This document shows positions 51,962 to 59,175 of a stretch of DNA of 64,000 nucleotides, piece by piece (positions within the stretch are counted from its first letter, which is position 1; every line of letters begins with the position of its first letter). The position numbers were made by a program, and so were the translations under genes. The stretch comes from Halalkalicoccus jeotgali B3 (GTDB lineage: Archaea > Halobacteriota > Halobacteria > Halobacteriales > Halalkalicoccaceae). The DNA lies in assembly GCF_000196895.1 (NCBI RefSeq), contig NC_014297.1:2401770-2465769 (forward strand), read 5' to 3'. The notes beneath the pieces were generated by a model that searched no databases, had not been told where the DNA came from, and saw only the letters and a program-made list of their open reading frames with translations.

Positions 51962-52492
51962 ATGAACGACGACTGGACGGTGCTCGAATCGGTCGCGGAG
52001 TACGAAACCGGCTGGTACACCGGCGGGTACGACCTCGTCGAACAGCCCGACGGCACGACCAAGAAGTACTACTGGGCCGAGCTCCCGCCCGCGACCGTGG
52101 TGGTGGCCTCGACCGGCGAGGAGGTCGTCTTCGTCGAGCAGTACCGCCCCGCCATCGGCCAAACCCACCTCGAACTGCCCGCGGGGATCGTTGAGGACGG
52201 CGAGTCCTTCGGCGAGGCCGGCGCGCGCGAACTGCGAGAGGAGACGGGCTTTGCGGCCGCGGGCGTCTCGGTCCTCCAGCGGATGTGGGTCGCGACGGGC
52301 GCATTGCGCCACGAGCGGGGGGTCGTCTTCGCCGAAGGGCTCACCCCCGTCGAGCGGGAACTCGACGACAACGAGTTCATCTCGGTGCGGTCGGTGCCGA
52401 TCGAGAGGGCGCTCGAACGCGCCCGCGAGGAGCCGACCAACGACGCGACCCTTGAGGGGCTGTTGCTCGCCCGCGAGGAGGGGCTGCTCTAG
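51962..52492 (+). CDS. NUDIX hydrolase (ADP-ribose pyrophosphatase-like)
   Basis: 176-residue NUDIX enzyme. The box is complete: GIVEDGESFGEAGARELREETGF (about 74-96), with the three catalytic Glu. The upstream strand VVVASTGEEVVFVEQYRPAI and the His-rich turn QTHLELPAG match ADP-sugar pyrophosphatases. It would cleave ADP-ribose or related sugars to AMP and sugar phosphate. Contrast with the NUDIX-like domain of the gene at 56936, whose box is degraded. It starts with the first ATG, 38 bases after DUF5809. Confidence 0.9.
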   Translation: MNDDWTVLESVAEYETGWYTGGYDLVEQPDGTTKKYYWAELPPATVVVASTGEEVVFVEQYRPAIGQTHLELPAGIVEDGESFGEAGARELREETGFAAAGVSVLQRMWVATGALRHERGVVFAEGLTPVERELDDNEFISVRSVPIERALERAREEPTNDATLEGLLLAREEGLL

Positions 52493-52909: not shown

Positions 52910-53227
<318 letters not shown>

Positions 53228-53498: not shown

Positions 53499-53708
53499 AT
53501 GGTCACTCCGATCCAGGACGCGATCGATCTCGTGGGGTACTTCAGCGACGTCGCGCTTGGCGATCCGATCAACGTCGTCCTCATGCTGTTCGGCTTCCTG
53601 TTCGTCGTCGTTCCCTCGGTGGCGTTCGGCGTGCTCGCCGCCGGCGGGATCCTCGATTCTATCCTTCCCGATACGCTCGGTCGATCGCCGCCCCAGCAAG
53701 GGAGATAG
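53499..53708 (+). CDS. Small membrane protein, unknown family
   Basis: 69 residues with one strong hydrophobic span (VVLMLFGFLFVVVPSVAFGV) and a second, weaker one (LAAGGILDSILP). I do not recognise the family. The ATG at 53499 is chosen because the upstream in-frame part covers the divergent zinc-ribbon gene. It overlaps the last 50 bases of the convergent F420-dependent reductase gene, so one of the two 3' ends may be inaccurately placed. Confidence 0.55.
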   Translation: MVTPIQDAIDLVGYFSDVALGDPINVVLMLFGFLFVVVPSVAFGVLAAGGILDSILPDTLGRSPPQQGR

Positions 53709-54720
53709 CCGCCTCGATGTCGGGGCCCAGCGGCGATCCGACGACAAAACCGTCGGTGTACGCCGATATCTCGCGCACCCGCCGCTCGACTGTCCCGGGC
53801 GTGCCCGCGATACAGAACGCGTCGATCATTTCCTCGGAGACGAGCGAGAACGCCTCGGAGAACGCCCCTGCGCCGATGTGTTCGCCGATCTCGCCCGCCA
53901 GTTCCCCGTCGAGGTCGTGGCGCTCCAGAACCGGCGGGGCCGCCCCGGCAGCGATGAAGGCGACCGGGGGCCGGGCCGCCTCGCGCGCCGCGTCGCCGTC
54001 CTCGGCGACGCTGAGGCTCGCGAAGGCCGCGAAATCGAACGGGCCCCGCGATTCGGGCCGCTCTGCGAGTCCTTGCTCAACGCGCTCTGCCGCCCACGCG
54101 AAGTCGTCGGGATGGGCGGCGTTCAGAAGGACGCCGTCGGCGTGTTTCGCGCTCATACGTATCATATGGGGGCCCTGTGCGCCGACGTAGACCGGGATCG
54201 ATCCGACCTCGTAGTTCAGCCCCGCGTCGATCGCGGTGAAGGTCCCCTCGTGGTTGACCCGTTCGCCCGCCCAGAGGTCCTGTGCCACTTTGAACGATTC
54301 GAGCACGCGCCGGAGCGGTCGGTCCCGTTCGTAGCCGAGATTAGACAGCGTCGAGGCGTCGCCCGCGCCGATCCCGAAGACCGCCCGCCCGTCGCTCAGT
54401 TCGTCGAGCGTCGCCACCCGCGAGGCCAGGGCCACGGGGTGGGTCTCGTAGGGGTTCGCGACGCCGGGACCCACCCGGAGGGAGTCGGTTCGGCGAGCGA
54501 TCTCCGAAAGGGCGGCGAACGGGTCGCGGTTGTTGTAGTGACAGCTCACGAAGGCGGTGTCGAAACCGGCCTCCTCGGCGAGCGCACCACAGGCGCCGAT
54601 CCGCGCGGCCGGGTGTTCAGGTGTGAGTTCGATCCCCACCACGTTCCGGTTCGCACTCGTGGGACCTCCCCCGGAGTGTTCCTCCGGTGTCGTTTCGTTC
54701 GCTCGCTTACGCTCGGTCAT
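53659..54720 (-). CDS. F420-dependent methylenetetrahydromethanopterin reductase-like protein
   Basis: 353-residue luciferase-like (LLM) flavin/F420 enzyme. Family points are GACGALAEEAGFDTAFVSCH at the N-terminus, then RVGPGVANPYETHPVALAS and SDGRAVFGIGAGDASTLSNL. Haloarchaeal genomes call such genes mer after the methanogen enzyme. Whether it reduces methylene-tetrahydrofolate-type carriers here is not established. It overlaps the cofE gene (F420 biosynthesis) by 14 bases, strong evidence that coenzyme F420 is its cofactor. Confidence 0.85.
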   Translation of the reverse strand: MTERKRANETTPEEHSGGGPTSANRNVVGIELTPEHPAARIGACGALAEEAGFDTAFVSCHYNNRDPFAALSEIARRTDSLRVGPGVANPYETHPVALASRVATLDELSDGRAVFGIGAGDASTLSNLGYERDRPLRRVLESFKVAQDLWAGERVNHEGTFTAIDAGLNYEVGSIPVYVGAQGPHMIRMSAKHADGVLLNAAHPDDFAWAAERVEQGLAERPESRGPFDFAAFASLSVAEDGDAAREAARPPVAFIAAGAAPPVLERHDLDGELAGEIGEHIGAGAFSEAFSLVSEEMIDAFCIAGTPGTVERRVREISAYTDGFVVGSPLGPDIEAAISLAGAAIDRAYREG

Positions 54721-55462
54721 ACGACCACCCCCGGAGCGCCTGACGGACGTAATCGCTCTCTATCTCGCGAAAGTGCTCGTCGCTTCCATCCATCTCCCCG
54801 AACTCGAAGTCCTCGACGACGACAGCGGGCACGCCACCGGCCCCCTCGCCGGCGACGAGGTTCGCCGCCGCGGCGAGTTCGTCGATCACGTTCTCCACTG
54901 TGACCCCGAGCTCCCGGCCATCCCTGTCGTTCTCGCCGCGCCAATCGCGGCTCGCGGGGGTTCCCGCCCAGCCGATGGCGACCCCGCGCTGGCCATGGCG
55001 AAACGGTCGCCCGCAGGTGTCGGTGACGATCACGGGGACCGAGAGGGCCTCCGAGAGGCGAGCGGCGCTCTCGGAGGGCCGTTCGGGCAGGAGGAGTATC
55101 TCGCCGTCGCCCGTGTTCGAGCGGTCGATCCCGGCGTTGACACAGACGTGGCCGAAGCGCGTCTCGGTGAGCAAGAACGGGGCCTCCGTGATGAGTTCGG
55201 TGCTCTCCTCCAACACTGCTTGTGCGAACCGGGGGTCTTTCTCCTCATCGGTGAGCTCCCCGAGTCGAGCGGCGATCTCGCGGGCGCGCGGGCCGGCCGG
55301 GAACTCGTCGAGGGAAGCGATCCGACCCTCGGCCTTCGAGACGACGGTGCTCGCGAGACAGAGGATCGAATCCGAGGATAGATCGACCCGCTCGGCAACG
55401 AGCGAGGCGAGGTCGTCGCCGGGACGGATCTCCGGGAGTCCGGGGACGGGCGTGAGTCGCAT
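54707..55462 (-). CDS. cofE: Coenzyme F420-0:L-glutamate ligase
   Basis: 251-residue CofE, which adds the gamma-linked glutamates to coenzyme F420. It begins MRLTPVPGLPEIRPGDDLAS, with the conserved VVSKAEGRI and GHVCVNAGIDRSNTGDGEIL in the expected places. The central metal/GTP region is VIVTDTCGRPFRHGQRGVAI, followed by GWAGTPASRDWRGENDRDGR and a C-terminal helical tail. It is transcribed with the LLM-type reductase, overlapping it by 14 bases. Confidence 0.93.
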   Translation of the reverse strand: MRLTPVPGLPEIRPGDDLASLVAERVDLSSDSILCLASTVVSKAEGRIASLDEFPAGPRAREIAARLGELTDEEKDPRFAQAVLEESTELITEAPFLLTETRFGHVCVNAGIDRSNTGDGEILLLPERPSESAARLSEALSVPVIVTDTCGRPFRHGQRGVAIGWAGTPASRDWRGENDRDGRELGVTVENVIDELAAAANLVAGEGAGGVPAVVVEDFEFGEMDGSDEHFREIESDYVRQALRGWSYDRA

Positions 55463-55544: not shown

Positions 55545-56825
55545 TCAGACGTTGGCGAGTTCGGAGGCGGTGACGACTTGGAGGTCGCGCGATTCGATCT
55601 CGTCCAGCAGCGTCTCGAAGTCCGCCTCGGAGATGTCGTTCAGGTCGCTCGTGGTGTCGCCCACCCCGTGAACGAGGGTGACGACGGCCTGGTTGTACTC
55701 GGCCGCCAGATCGAGCAGATCGGAGACCTCGTCGAGGGCGTAGCCGTTGACCCGCGAGACCATGTGGCCGTCGGTCGGCGGGGCGATGTTGGGCTGGCCG
55801 CCGTGGATGTACGAGTGATCGAACACCTCACGGACGGCCTCGAGCGAGTCGGCGTCCATTCGGTTGTACGGCGCGAAGTAGTGGTTCGCGCCGTCCTCGT
55901 CGATCCGGTTGGCGATGTAGTCGCGTGCGTCCTCGAGATACCCCACCCGCTCGTCGTGGGACTCCATCTCCGGCAGCGCCGTGTGCGGATGGGAAGCGAT
56001 GTCCCAGCCGGCGCTTCGCATCTCGCGACACTGATCGACGGTCAGGCGGTCGGGCTGGTTGATCGAGTCGGGAATGACCGCCGCGACGCCGGGCCAACCG
56101 CGCTCTTCGAGCATCGGCATGGCGGTCGTATACTGGTTCTGGACCCCGTCGTCGAACGTGAGGACGACGTAGCCCTGATCGCCGCGCTCGGTCGCACGCA
56201 GGTCGTCGACCAGGAACCGAGTGGTGGGGTTGGTGTCGCTGTGGGGTTGGACGTAGATGCGAAGCTCGCGGACGTTCCCGAGGTTCGGTTCGCCGCGCTT
56301 GCCCGTCCAGCCGGCCTCCATGCGGAACCAGCCGGTGAACTCGCTGGGGATCGACCGGGCGCTCGTCAGCTGGTCGCTCCGACCGGGCGCGCGCGCCTCG
56401 AGGACGACGCGGGCGGGCGTGGGCGATTCGATCTTGATCGCGACCGAGAGATCCTTGCCCTCGACGTCGAGGCCGTCGGGAAACACGCGGTAGGCACCGA
56501 TCGACTCGGTCGTATCGGCCTCGACGAGCATCGACCCGTCGCCGACGAGCGCCTCGTCGCTCGCCTCGACGGTCGTGTGATCGTAGAGCGGGTTCCACTC
56601 GATCTCCTCGAAGTCGTCGATCGATTCGCCGTCGGCGATCGCGGGTGCCGTGACGTCCGCGTCGGGGGAGTCAGTCCCGTCGTCGCCGGTCGGGTCGTTC
56701 GTATCCCCGTCCGGGTCGTCGGTGTCGCCGTCGTCCTCGCGCGAACCGATACAGCCAGCGAGGGCGGCACTGCCCATACCCACGCCGACGGTCGTGAGGA
56801 ACGTTCTGCGGTGTTGCTTGGTCAT
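55545..56825 (-). CDS. Secreted polysaccharide deacetylase lipoprotein
   Basis: 426-residue lipoprotein. A twin-arginine signal (HRRTFLTTVGVGMGSAALAG) is followed by a lipobox Cys (AGC) and an acidic spacer of about 35 residues (DDPDGDTNDPTGDDGTDS). A beta-rich carbohydrate-binding-like region (about 70-210) precedes the NodB/CE4 domain. Its motifs are VVLTFDDGVQNQY (metal Asp pair), DIASHPHTALPEM (two His), and a C-terminal LVHGVGD. It may trim or N-deacetylate surface glycans. A clear TATA box (minus ATTTATA, 56857-56863) lies about 35 bases before the ATG. Confidence 0.88.
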   Translation of the reverse strand: MTKQHRRTFLTTVGVGMGSAALAGCIGSREDDGDTDDPDGDTNDPTGDDGTDSPDADVTAPAIADGESIDDFEEIEWNPLYDHTTVEASDEALVGDGSMLVEADTTESIGAYRVFPDGLDVEGKDLSVAIKIESPTPARVVLEARAPGRSDQLTSARSIPSEFTGWFRMEAGWTGKRGEPNLGNVRELRIYVQPHSDTNPTTRFLVDDLRATERGDQGYVVLTFDDGVQNQYTTAMPMLEERGWPGVAAVIPDSINQPDRLTVDQCREMRSAGWDIASHPHTALPEMESHDERVGYLEDARDYIANRIDEDGANHYFAPYNRMDADSLEAVREVFDHSYIHGGQPNIAPPTDGHMVSRVNGYALDEVSDLLDLAAEYNQAVVTLVHGVGDTTSDLNDISEADFETLLDEIESRDLQVVTASELANV

Positions 56826-56856
56826 GTTCTCAGCAGTATGATATGTTCCATAAGTG

Positions 56857-56935: not shown

Positions 56936-58117
56936 ATGAGGACGGAGCGCGCGACGGTCGTCCTCCGCCATCGGGGGCGGGTCCTGCTCCGGCGATGGGC
57001 AGGAACGCCGGGCTGGGAACTCCCCTGGAGTGCGGTCGGGGACGATCCGGCCGCGGCGGCCTCGCGGGCGGTCGAGTCGACGGGAGTCGAAGGCCCGGTG
57101 ACGATCCGCGAGGGAGCGCCCGTCGAGATCGACGACCGGACGGTGTACCCGTTTCTGGTCGCGTGTGAGTCGCCCGAAACCGACGACGGCGAGTGGGTCC
57201 ACGCAACCGAGATCCGCCGCCGCGAGACGCCGGCCGGATCGTGGCGGGCCTACAGCGCCGTCGCCCCCACCGTCGAGAGCGTCCGTGGGGATCGCACCCA
57301 GGGGTCGGCGGCCGTCTCCGTGCGGGCGCTGGAGGTGCTTCGCGACCGAGCGGGCGAGGGGGCCGACTGGCCGGCGCTCGTCGAGCAGGCGAACGCCCTA
57401 CTCGAAGCGCGCCCGAGCATGGCCGCCGTCATGAACCGGATCAACCGGGCGATGGCCGAGGCCGCGGGGACGGCCGACGCCGTGGCGCTCGAACGGGCCA
57501 CCCGAGCGGGCATCGACCGGGCGCTCGCCGCCGACGGGCGGGCAGCCGAGAACGCCACAAAGCGCGTCGAGGGGACGGTCCTGACCCTTTCGCGATCGGG
57601 CACGGTCCGCGGGGCGTTCTCGGCGGGCGATCCCGATCGTGTGATCGTCCTCGAATCCCGCCCGGACCGGGAAGGGATCGACGTGGCCGAGGATCTCGCC
57701 GAAGACGCGGACGTGACCGTGACCCTCGACGCGGCAATCGCCCACGTCATGGCGGACGTCGACGCGGTGCTCGTGGGCGCCGATACCGTCCTCGCCGACG
57801 GAAGCGTCGTCAACAAGGTCGGCACCCGGACGGCGGCGGTCGTGGCTGCCCGCGAGGGCGTGCCGGTCTACGCCGTCGCGGCGGTCGATAAGATCAGCCC
57901 GGCGACCGAGCCAGTACTGGAATCGATCGACTCCGAGGCGATCACCGACCGCGAGGCCGTTGCCGTCGAGTGTCCGCTGTTCGACCGCACGCCGCCGGAC
58001 CTCATCACGGGTCTGATCACCGAGGAAGGACTGCTCAACGCGACCGCCATCGGCGAGCGGGCGGCCGACCACGAGCGCCGGGCGCGGTGGAAAGAGCCAA
58101 ACCCCTCCGAGGGGTAG
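56936..58117 (+). CDS. Degenerate-NUDIX / eIF2B-like fusion protein
   Basis: 393 residues in two domains. Residues 1-135 have the NUDIX layout (MRTERATVVLRHRGRVLLRR, then AVGDDPAAAASRAVESTGVE). The box reads SRAVESTGV where an active one has RExxEExG, so two of the three Glu are lost and hydrolysis is unlikely. Residues 140-393 are the eIF2B-alpha/MtnA/ribose-bisphosphate-isomerase fold: DAVLVGADTVLADGSVVNKV and GTRTAAVVAAREGVPVYAVA. Where isomerases carry T-H-C-N-S, this has TVLTLSRSGTV, with no catalytic Cys. That suggests a binding or regulatory protein rather than an isomerase. Similar fusions are recorded in haloarchaea as eIF2B-like. Confidence 0.78.
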   Translation: MRTERATVVLRHRGRVLLRRWAGTPGWELPWSAVGDDPAAAASRAVESTGVEGPVTIREGAPVEIDDRTVYPFLVACESPETDDGEWVHATEIRRRETPAGSWRAYSAVAPTVESVRGDRTQGSAAVSVRALEVLRDRAGEGADWPALVEQANALLEARPSMAAVMNRINRAMAEAAGTADAVALERATRAGIDRALAADGRAAENATKRVEGTVLTLSRSGTVRGAFSAGDPDRVIVLESRPDREGIDVAEDLAEDADVTVTLDAAIAHVMADVDAVLVGADTVLADGSVVNKVGTRTAAVVAAREGVPVYAVAAVDKISPATEPVLESIDSEAITDREAVAVECPLFDRTPPDLITGLITEEGLLNATAIGERAADHERRARWKEPNPSEG

Positions 58118-58248: not shown

Positions 58249-59175
58249 ATGCACGTAGAACGACTCGGCATCCACGACTCGGTGAGCGCCGTCTTCCCGC
58301 CCGAACGACTGTGCGAGGCCCTCGCGGACCTGCATCCGGAGGTCGTCGTCGTGGACGACGCGGCGGCCATCTCGGCGTGTGATGCCGTTGTCACGTTCGC
58401 TCACGAGGAAGCCTTCCTCGATCTGGAGTGGATCCACTCGATCCAGGCGGGCTACGACCGCTTTCCCCTCCCGGAGCTCGAGGACCGCGGGATCGTCCTC
58501 ACCAACAGCACAGGGATCCACGGCGACAGCGTCGGCGAGACCGTACTCGGGTACATGCTCGGCGTCTCGCGTCGTCTCCAGCAGTACGCCCGCCAGCAGG
58601 AACGCCGCGAGTGGGACAAGCCCGACTGGGACGTCCCGTTCACTCTCGCGGGCGAATCGGTCTGCGTGGTCGGCCTCGGAACGCTCGGGCGGGGGATCGC
58701 CGACCGGGCCGACGCGATCGGCATGACGGTCACGGGGGTCAGACGCAGCGAGGAGCCCGTCGAGGGTGTCGATCGGGTCTACGCGAGCGAGGACCTCCAC
58801 GAGGCGATTTCGGGGGTGCGCTTCGTCGCGCTTGCGACCCCGCTCAACGAGCACACCCGGGGGTTGATCGGCGAGGCCGAACTGGCGGCGATGGACGAGG
58901 AGAGTTACCTAATCAACGTCGCCCGCGGCGGGGTCGTCGATCAGGACGCGCTCGTGGCGGCCCTCGAAGACGGGGAGATCCGGGGGGCGGCGCTCGACGT
59001 CTTCGAGACCGAACCCCTCCCCGAAGAGTCGCCGCTGTGGGGGTTCGAGGAGGTGACCGTCACGCCCCACGTCGCGGCCTTCACGCGCGAGTACTACGAG
59101 GGCGTCGCCGGGATCGTCCGAACGAACCTCGAGCGGATCGCGGCGGATGGAACCTTCGAAAACAGGGTCGTCTGA
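58249..59175 (+). CDS. D-2-hydroxyacid dehydrogenase, NAD-dependent
   Basis: 308-residue D-specific 2-hydroxyacid dehydrogenase. The Rossmann fingerprint is CVVGLGTLGRGIADRADAIG (about 142-161). Active-site residues are the Arg in NVARGGVVDQDALV, the Glu in ALDVFETEPLPEESPLW, and the His in TVTPHVAAFTREY. Substrate could be any 2-oxo acid. The start at 58249 (MHVERLGIHDSVSAVFPPE) is chosen over upstream in-frame codons, which overlap the previous gene. It stands 130 bases after the eIF2B-like gene. Confidence 0.92.
   Translation: MHVERLGIHDSVSAVFPPERLCEALADLHPEVVVVDDAAAISACDAVVTFAHEEAFLDLEWIHSIQAGYDRFPLPELEDRGIVLTNSTGIHGDSVGETVLGYMLGVSRRLQQYARQQERREWDKPDWDVPFTLAGESVCVVGLGTLGRGIADRADAIGMTVTGVRRSEEPVEGVDRVYASEDLHEAISGVRFVALATPLNEHTRGLIGEAELAAMDEESYLINVARGGVVDQDALVAALEDGEIRGAALDVFETEPLPEESPLWGFEEVTVTPHVAAFTREYYEGVAGIVRTNLERIAADGTFENRVV

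Follow-up and report, generated by a model that had tools for sequence, protein, structure and literature searches.

A Cys-less, strictly conserved isomerase-fold pocket joined to an apparently decaying NUDIX domain in a haloarchaeal eIF2B-like fusion protein

The archaeal ribose-1,5-bisphosphate (R15P) isomerases (PH0208, TK0185, HVO_0966 type) and human eIF2Bα are among the nearest known counterparts of the protein considered here. In PH0208 of Pyrococcus horikoshii, replacement of the catalytic Cys135 by Ser gives an inactive mutant that holds its substrate in the crystal (PMC5789824). Human eIF2Bα, a subunit of a decameric exchange factor without a NUDIX domain, carries Ala in place of the catalytic Cys and has also lost the 1-phosphate ligands (PMC5789824), while keeping the sugar and 5/6-phosphate pocket and binding sugar phosphates in this ancestral catalytic site (PMC8187479). 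In haloarchaea, HVO_1934 of Haloferax volcanii, annotated as 'NUDIX family hydrolase/eIF-2B domain protein' and studied as aIF2Bsu, clusters together with HVO_2706 (PMC8576121) and has been deleted and tagged in earlier work (PMC3828320, PMC8576121). The fusion family is an ordinary one in haloarchaea and was annotated before this analysis.

The window, that is, the whole stretch of 64,000 nucleotides of Halalkalicoccus jeotgali B3 DNA that was analysed, encodes one such fusion, which looks orthologous to HVO_1934 by annotation, domain architecture and lineage (PMC8576121). Its features are the following:

56936..58117, + strand, CDS of 393 aa, an open reading frame for a NUDIX relic fused to an eIF2B fold (HVO_1934 type, named from shared architecture and lineage)
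56936..57280, + strand, N-terminal NUDIX-homology domain, residues 1-115 (61 bits with a profile of intact relatives)
57062..57088, + strand, degenerate NUDIX box SRAVESTGV, residues 43-51, with R44, E47 and S48 at the E-x-x-E-E positions
57281..58048, + strand, eIF2B/R15P-isomerase-fold domain, about residues 116-371 (PF01008; PH0208 chains in PDB)
57584..57601, + strand, TLSRSG, residues 217-222, with S219 at catalytic Cys135 and S221 at the 5-phosphate ligand Ser137
57653..57676, + strand, ESRPDREG, residues 240-247, with E246 in place of the 1-phosphate ligand Gln166
57776..57784, + strand, GAD, residues 281-283, where D283 is the second catalytic residue Asp204, kept
57812..57817, + strand, N293-K294, the sugar/phosphate ligands Asn214-Lys215, kept
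57890..57892, + strand, K319, the 5-phosphate ligand Lys240, kept

The ATG at 56936 is the likely start, since close relatives begin at the matching position; an in-frame ATG at 56843 was rejected for the same reason.

The assignment of the second domain to the eIF2B/isomerase fold, made in the initial annotation from the sequence alone, was confirmed by a match to Pfam IF-2B PF01008 (E 9.1e-48, 163.3 bits against a cut-off of 22.4, residues 121-368) and by PDB matches to PH0208 chains (E 5e-19 to 7e-18), the best of them to the chains with Ser at Cys135 (5yfs group). The NCBIfam model of the R15P isomerase, TIGR00511, gave 90.9 bits, below its cut-off of 314.1. Pocket residues were assigned the roles described for the PH0208 structure (PMC5789824), and 122 fusion members were extracted: the window protein, one named relative and 120 others that were the better-scoring matches of a class-wide search. 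TLSRSG does lie at the catalytic Cys site, as had been noted, with S219 aligned to Cys135 and Ser at this position in all 122 members. The substitution of Gln166 by Glu is equally universal (122/122), and Arg22 is replaced by His in 109 members and by Gln in the window protein. The initial annotation did not mention that Asp204 (D283) is retained together with the majority of the ligand residues: Ser137, Asn214 and Lys215 in 122/122 members each, Asp204 in 121 with a gap in the remaining one, Lys240 in 121 and Arg65 in 116. Outside these counts, twelve further members, some of them with weaker scores, served as a control; they carry the identical pattern from Arg65 onward, including Ser135, Ser137 and Glu166 in 12/12, the alignment at position 22 being ambiguous. 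The pattern does not change with the state of the NUDIX domain, intact or lost.

The same positions were compared across 20 loci (16 of R15P-isomerase type and 4 delta-like) and 16 sampled fusions. Every R15P-isomerase-type locus reads R-R-C-S-Q-D-N-K-K and every delta-like locus H-N-D-S-(L/I)-D-N-R-K, whereas past position 22 the sampled fusions read R-S-S-E-D-N-K-K. A tree of 41 sequences places the eIF2B domain of the fusion as sister to the HVO_2706-type paralogue (100% ultrafast bootstrap), with the haloarchaeal R15P isomerases next to the pair (support 81). This aIF2B-delta-like paralogue (L002/L164 in the H. jeotgali genome, named from annotation) is also Cys-less, but in it the Cys is replaced by Asp, Arg65 by Asn and Lys215 by Arg, and no NUDIX domain was seen; its class has a fixed pocket pattern of its own. 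With Asp at the Cys position, L002 was rejected as an R15P isomerase. Compared with the archaeal R15P isomerases, the fusion shares the fold, Arg65, Ser137, Asp204, Asn214, Lys215 and Lys240, and differs by Cys135 to Ser, Gln166 to Glu, Arg22 to His or Gln and the loss of most AMP-site residues. Because both the substitutions and the kept ligands are fixed across the family, the pocket is re-specified and strictly conserved rather than decayed. The earlier statement that both active sites are degraded therefore stands for the NUDIX box of the window protein, which has lost two Glu, and for the loss of Cys135, but not for the isomerase pocket as a whole. An AlphaFold model of the fusion, built from two sequences (the window protein and one relative), had a mean pLDDT of 47.9, too low for the model to be of use.

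By analogy with PH0208 C135S, the window protein is expected to be inactive as a canonical R15P isomerase: Cys135 is gone, while Asp204 and the sugar and 5-phosphate ligands are present as D283, N293, K294, S221 and K319. AMP and ribose-1,5-bisphosphate, both suggested earlier as ligands, are unlikely. The AMP-site residues of PH0208 are mostly gone, with Arg190, Lys194, Arg229 and Trp231 not conserved in the 122 members, Asn209 kept in 8, Arg124 in 61 and Asp290 in 47; Arg22 and Gln166 are both replaced; and the H. jeotgali genome, rated 98.58% complete, yielded neither an R15P isomerase nor Rubisco nor a true AMP phosphorylase. Its two IF-2B genes are the fusion and an HVO_2706-type gene, and the only match to AMP phosphorylase is weak, at 36 bits where the cut-off is 535. 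The R15P pathways known from other haloarchaea (PMC9700705) are thus not evident in this genome, given the absence of Rubisco and the weak AMP phosphorylase match.

At the N-terminus, no NUDIX match was obtained in the Pfam search of the window protein, and the Pfam NUDIX cut-off was passed by three of six relatives. A profile of 18 NUDIX-intact relatives, in contrast, scored this region at 61.0 bits, and the highest score among 1000 shuffles was 6.5 bits, which rules out chance similarity and identifies the region as a NUDIX relic. As the initial annotation had it, only one of the three metal-binding Glu of E-x-x-E-E is left in SRAVESTGV (E47), with R44 and S48 at the other two positions, so the NUDIX fold can be recognized but NUDIX hydrolysis by the protein is not to be expected. 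Its predicted inactivity both as a hydrolase and as a canonical isomerase is in line with the earlier claim, through the lost box Glu and the C135S precedent (PMC5789824).

This does not hold for the family. E-x-x-E-E is intact in 93 of the 122 members and absent in 29, and the NUDIX domain is intact in 9 of the 12 additional members. Two of the 29 were left out of the loss count, L098 as truncated and L153 as a conservative E to D change, leaving 27 members for which the label 'NUDIX hydrolase' is doubtful. Loss-only parsimony on a tree built from only the eIF2B domain placed 10 losses, or 8 without L098 and L153; they span five families, and one loss group is weakly supported (0.27). In the window's genus, REIDEE is kept in one member (L048) and lost in the window protein (L001) and four others (L044-L047), and these five cluster with a support of 0.986. 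By this count the box was lost about eight times independently, once in this genus. Among pairs 70-75% identical in the eIF2B domain, with L098, L153 and L103 left out, the 151 pairs with two intact NUDIX domains have a median NUDIX identity of 0.75, and the 14 pairs with two degraded ones a median of 0.53; the window protein and L044 share an identity of 0.73 in the eIF2B domain and 0.38 in the NUDIX domain. For the ten pairs formed by the window protein and the four others of its group, dN/dS comes to about 0.45-0.65 in the NUDIX domain and 0.28-0.43 in the eIF2B part, rough Nei-Gojobori values at high dS. The identity gap and these ratios indicate that the degraded NUDIX domains are under weaker constraint, yet not free.

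The loss is therefore best read from these comparisons as local decay under relaxed constraint and not as a design of the family, contrary to the earlier idea of two domains inactive by design. The ancestral N-terminal NUDIX domain was probably an active hydrolase, and a conserved NUDIX sensor in the window's lineage appears unlikely, because the box is intact in most members and under relaxed constraint where lost. The closest solved relatives of the intact NUDIX domains are NudI/MutT-type hydrolases, the nearest being 3n77 (E 2.1e-9), and 14 of 18 members matched the NudI model at E up to 0.001; the window box differs from these in being two Glu short. With such relatives, a coupling of ADP-ribose to ribose-5-phosphate through the NUDIX domain was dropped. 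Two further cases were observed: one genome (G076) has two fusion copies (L115 and L116), both with a degraded box, and in L090 (genome G007) the box region is mostly eroded and the eIF2B half retained.

We consider it an even chance that the fusion is a sugar-phosphate-binding pseudo-isomerase serving as a metabolic sensor or regulatory protein. The C-terminal domain, with Ser at the catalytic Cys and an altered 1-phosphate clamp, would no longer be the known isomerase, but its retained pocket would most likely bind a sugar (5-)phosphate; the bound metabolite would change the oligomer or partner state of the fusion; and the N-terminal NUDIX domain, presumably once a hydrolase, would have lost catalysis and be decaying in the window's lineage. 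The invariant pocket, the Ser135 form of PH0208 as closest PDB chain and the eIF2Bα precedent (PMC8187479) argue for this reading, and the latter analogy makes the ligand sensor of the initial annotation reasonable for the second domain, though not for the NUDIX half. Against it, single deletion of HVO_1934 gave no phenotype in 12 conditions, and the double deletion with HVO_2706 is viable and called indistinguishable in the text, although the Figure 6 legend of that paper nevertheless names conditions with differences for the double mutant (PMC3828320). In addition, Ser, Glu, Asp, Asn and Lys are so strictly conserved that an active enzyme would fit just as well.

The main alternative is indeed enzymatic activity of the C-terminal domain, on a new substrate or by a new chemistry, in which Ser219/Asp283 and Glu246 would carry out proton transfer on a sugar monophosphate. 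Fixed Ser135 and Glu166 with a kept Asp/Asn/Lys set show the strictness typical of catalysis, and the residues differ in a class-specific manner from both the R15P isomerase and the delta-like paralogue. To our knowledge, however, the isomerases known from this fold all rely on Cys. The C135S change abolishes PH0208 activity (PMC5789824), and in eIF2Bα the pocket is retained for binding alone (PMC8187479), so that this alternative, though a serious one, seems to us somewhat improbable.

A wider form of the pseudo-isomerase reading is a speculation that we regard as rather unlikely: haloarchaea would have turned the R15P-isomerase fold into a metabolite receptor, independently of eukaryotic eIF2B, through the Cys-to-Ser change seen in the substrate-holding mutant, with the receptor coupled to a NUDIX domain that made or cleared the ligand, with the hydrolase half later shed by decay in several lineages and the receptor half still selected. 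The metabolite pocket of eIF2Bα is itself thought to derive from sugar-phosphate isomerases, and a large family of archaea whose pocket is, in parallel, devoid of Cys and strictly conserved gives a simple system of one chain in which to test the passage from isomerase to receptor. No prior description of the repeated NUDIX-box decay or of the invariant Ser/Glu-modified pocket was found in the literature searched.

A role as an archaeal translation initiation factor 2B subunit is quite improbable. The C-terminal domain has the eIF2B fold, and the H. volcanii protein, studied as aIF2Bsu, was co-isolated with an RNA polymerase subunit bait, but in the same study HVO_1934 and HVO_2706 showed just one or two interactions, and a heteromeric complex found no support (PMC8576121), and the authors of the viable double deletion doubt the annotation (PMC3828320). 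The fusion is widespread in the class, and it also seems to be absent from many haloarchaea: a match at E <= 1e-3 was obtained in 291 of the 292 genomes of the class, many to single-domain paralogues alone, and the best match was at E <= 1e-30 in about 230 of them, counted by eye. When 245 genomes of the phylum were searched with a profile, all those among the matches listed that lie outside the order began at profile position 122 or later, in the eIF2B part only; a scan of viral contigs found no relatives. The eIF2B label says little on translation for this family. Least probable is the earlier proposal that two purposely inactive domains form a double sensor, for nucleotides (AMP, ADP-ribose) and for ribose-1,5-bisphosphate, since both catalytic motifs are gone from the window protein but the NUDIX box persists in most members and decays where lost, the AMP-site and 1-phosphate residues have changed, and the R15P isomerase, Rubisco and full AMP phosphorylase are missing from the genome.

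The genes around the fusion in the window include:

51962-52492, + strand, single-domain NUDIX protein with intact box RELREETGF, 4.4 kb from the fusion
52910-53203, - strand, SUI1-family gene (aIF1 translation initiation factor; Pfam E 1.8e-24), 3.7 kb from the fusion
53659..54720, - strand, luciferase-like (mer-like) reductase (Pfam PF00296), in 83/121 neighbourhoods
54707..55462, - strand, cofE, F420-0:gamma-glutamyl ligase (Pfam), in 91/121 neighbourhoods
55545-56825, - strand, polysaccharide deacetylase-type protein, between cofE and the fusion
58249..59175, + strand, D-2-hydroxyacid dehydrogenase (Pfam), downstream; start set by eye, with 58243 taken for the searches

The neighbourhoods of 121 relatives, reaching some 5 kb to either side, were surveyed with seven queries, and raw counts are given. 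The D-2-hydroxyacid dehydrogenase was present in 54 of them, 53 on the same strand downstream; a metallophosphoesterase was present in 62, an engB-like GTPase in 58 and DUF389 in 47, and 9 had none of the seven queries. On stop-to-stop open reading frames, cofE was divergent and within 600 bases of the fusion in 45/121, and the dehydrogenase lay downstream on the same strand within 600 bases in 35/121. The neighbourhood is one of conserved synteny without an obvious pathway. The polysaccharide deacetylase-type gene is probably a local insertion, as a match to it was found in only 6 of the 121 relatives' neighbourhoods.
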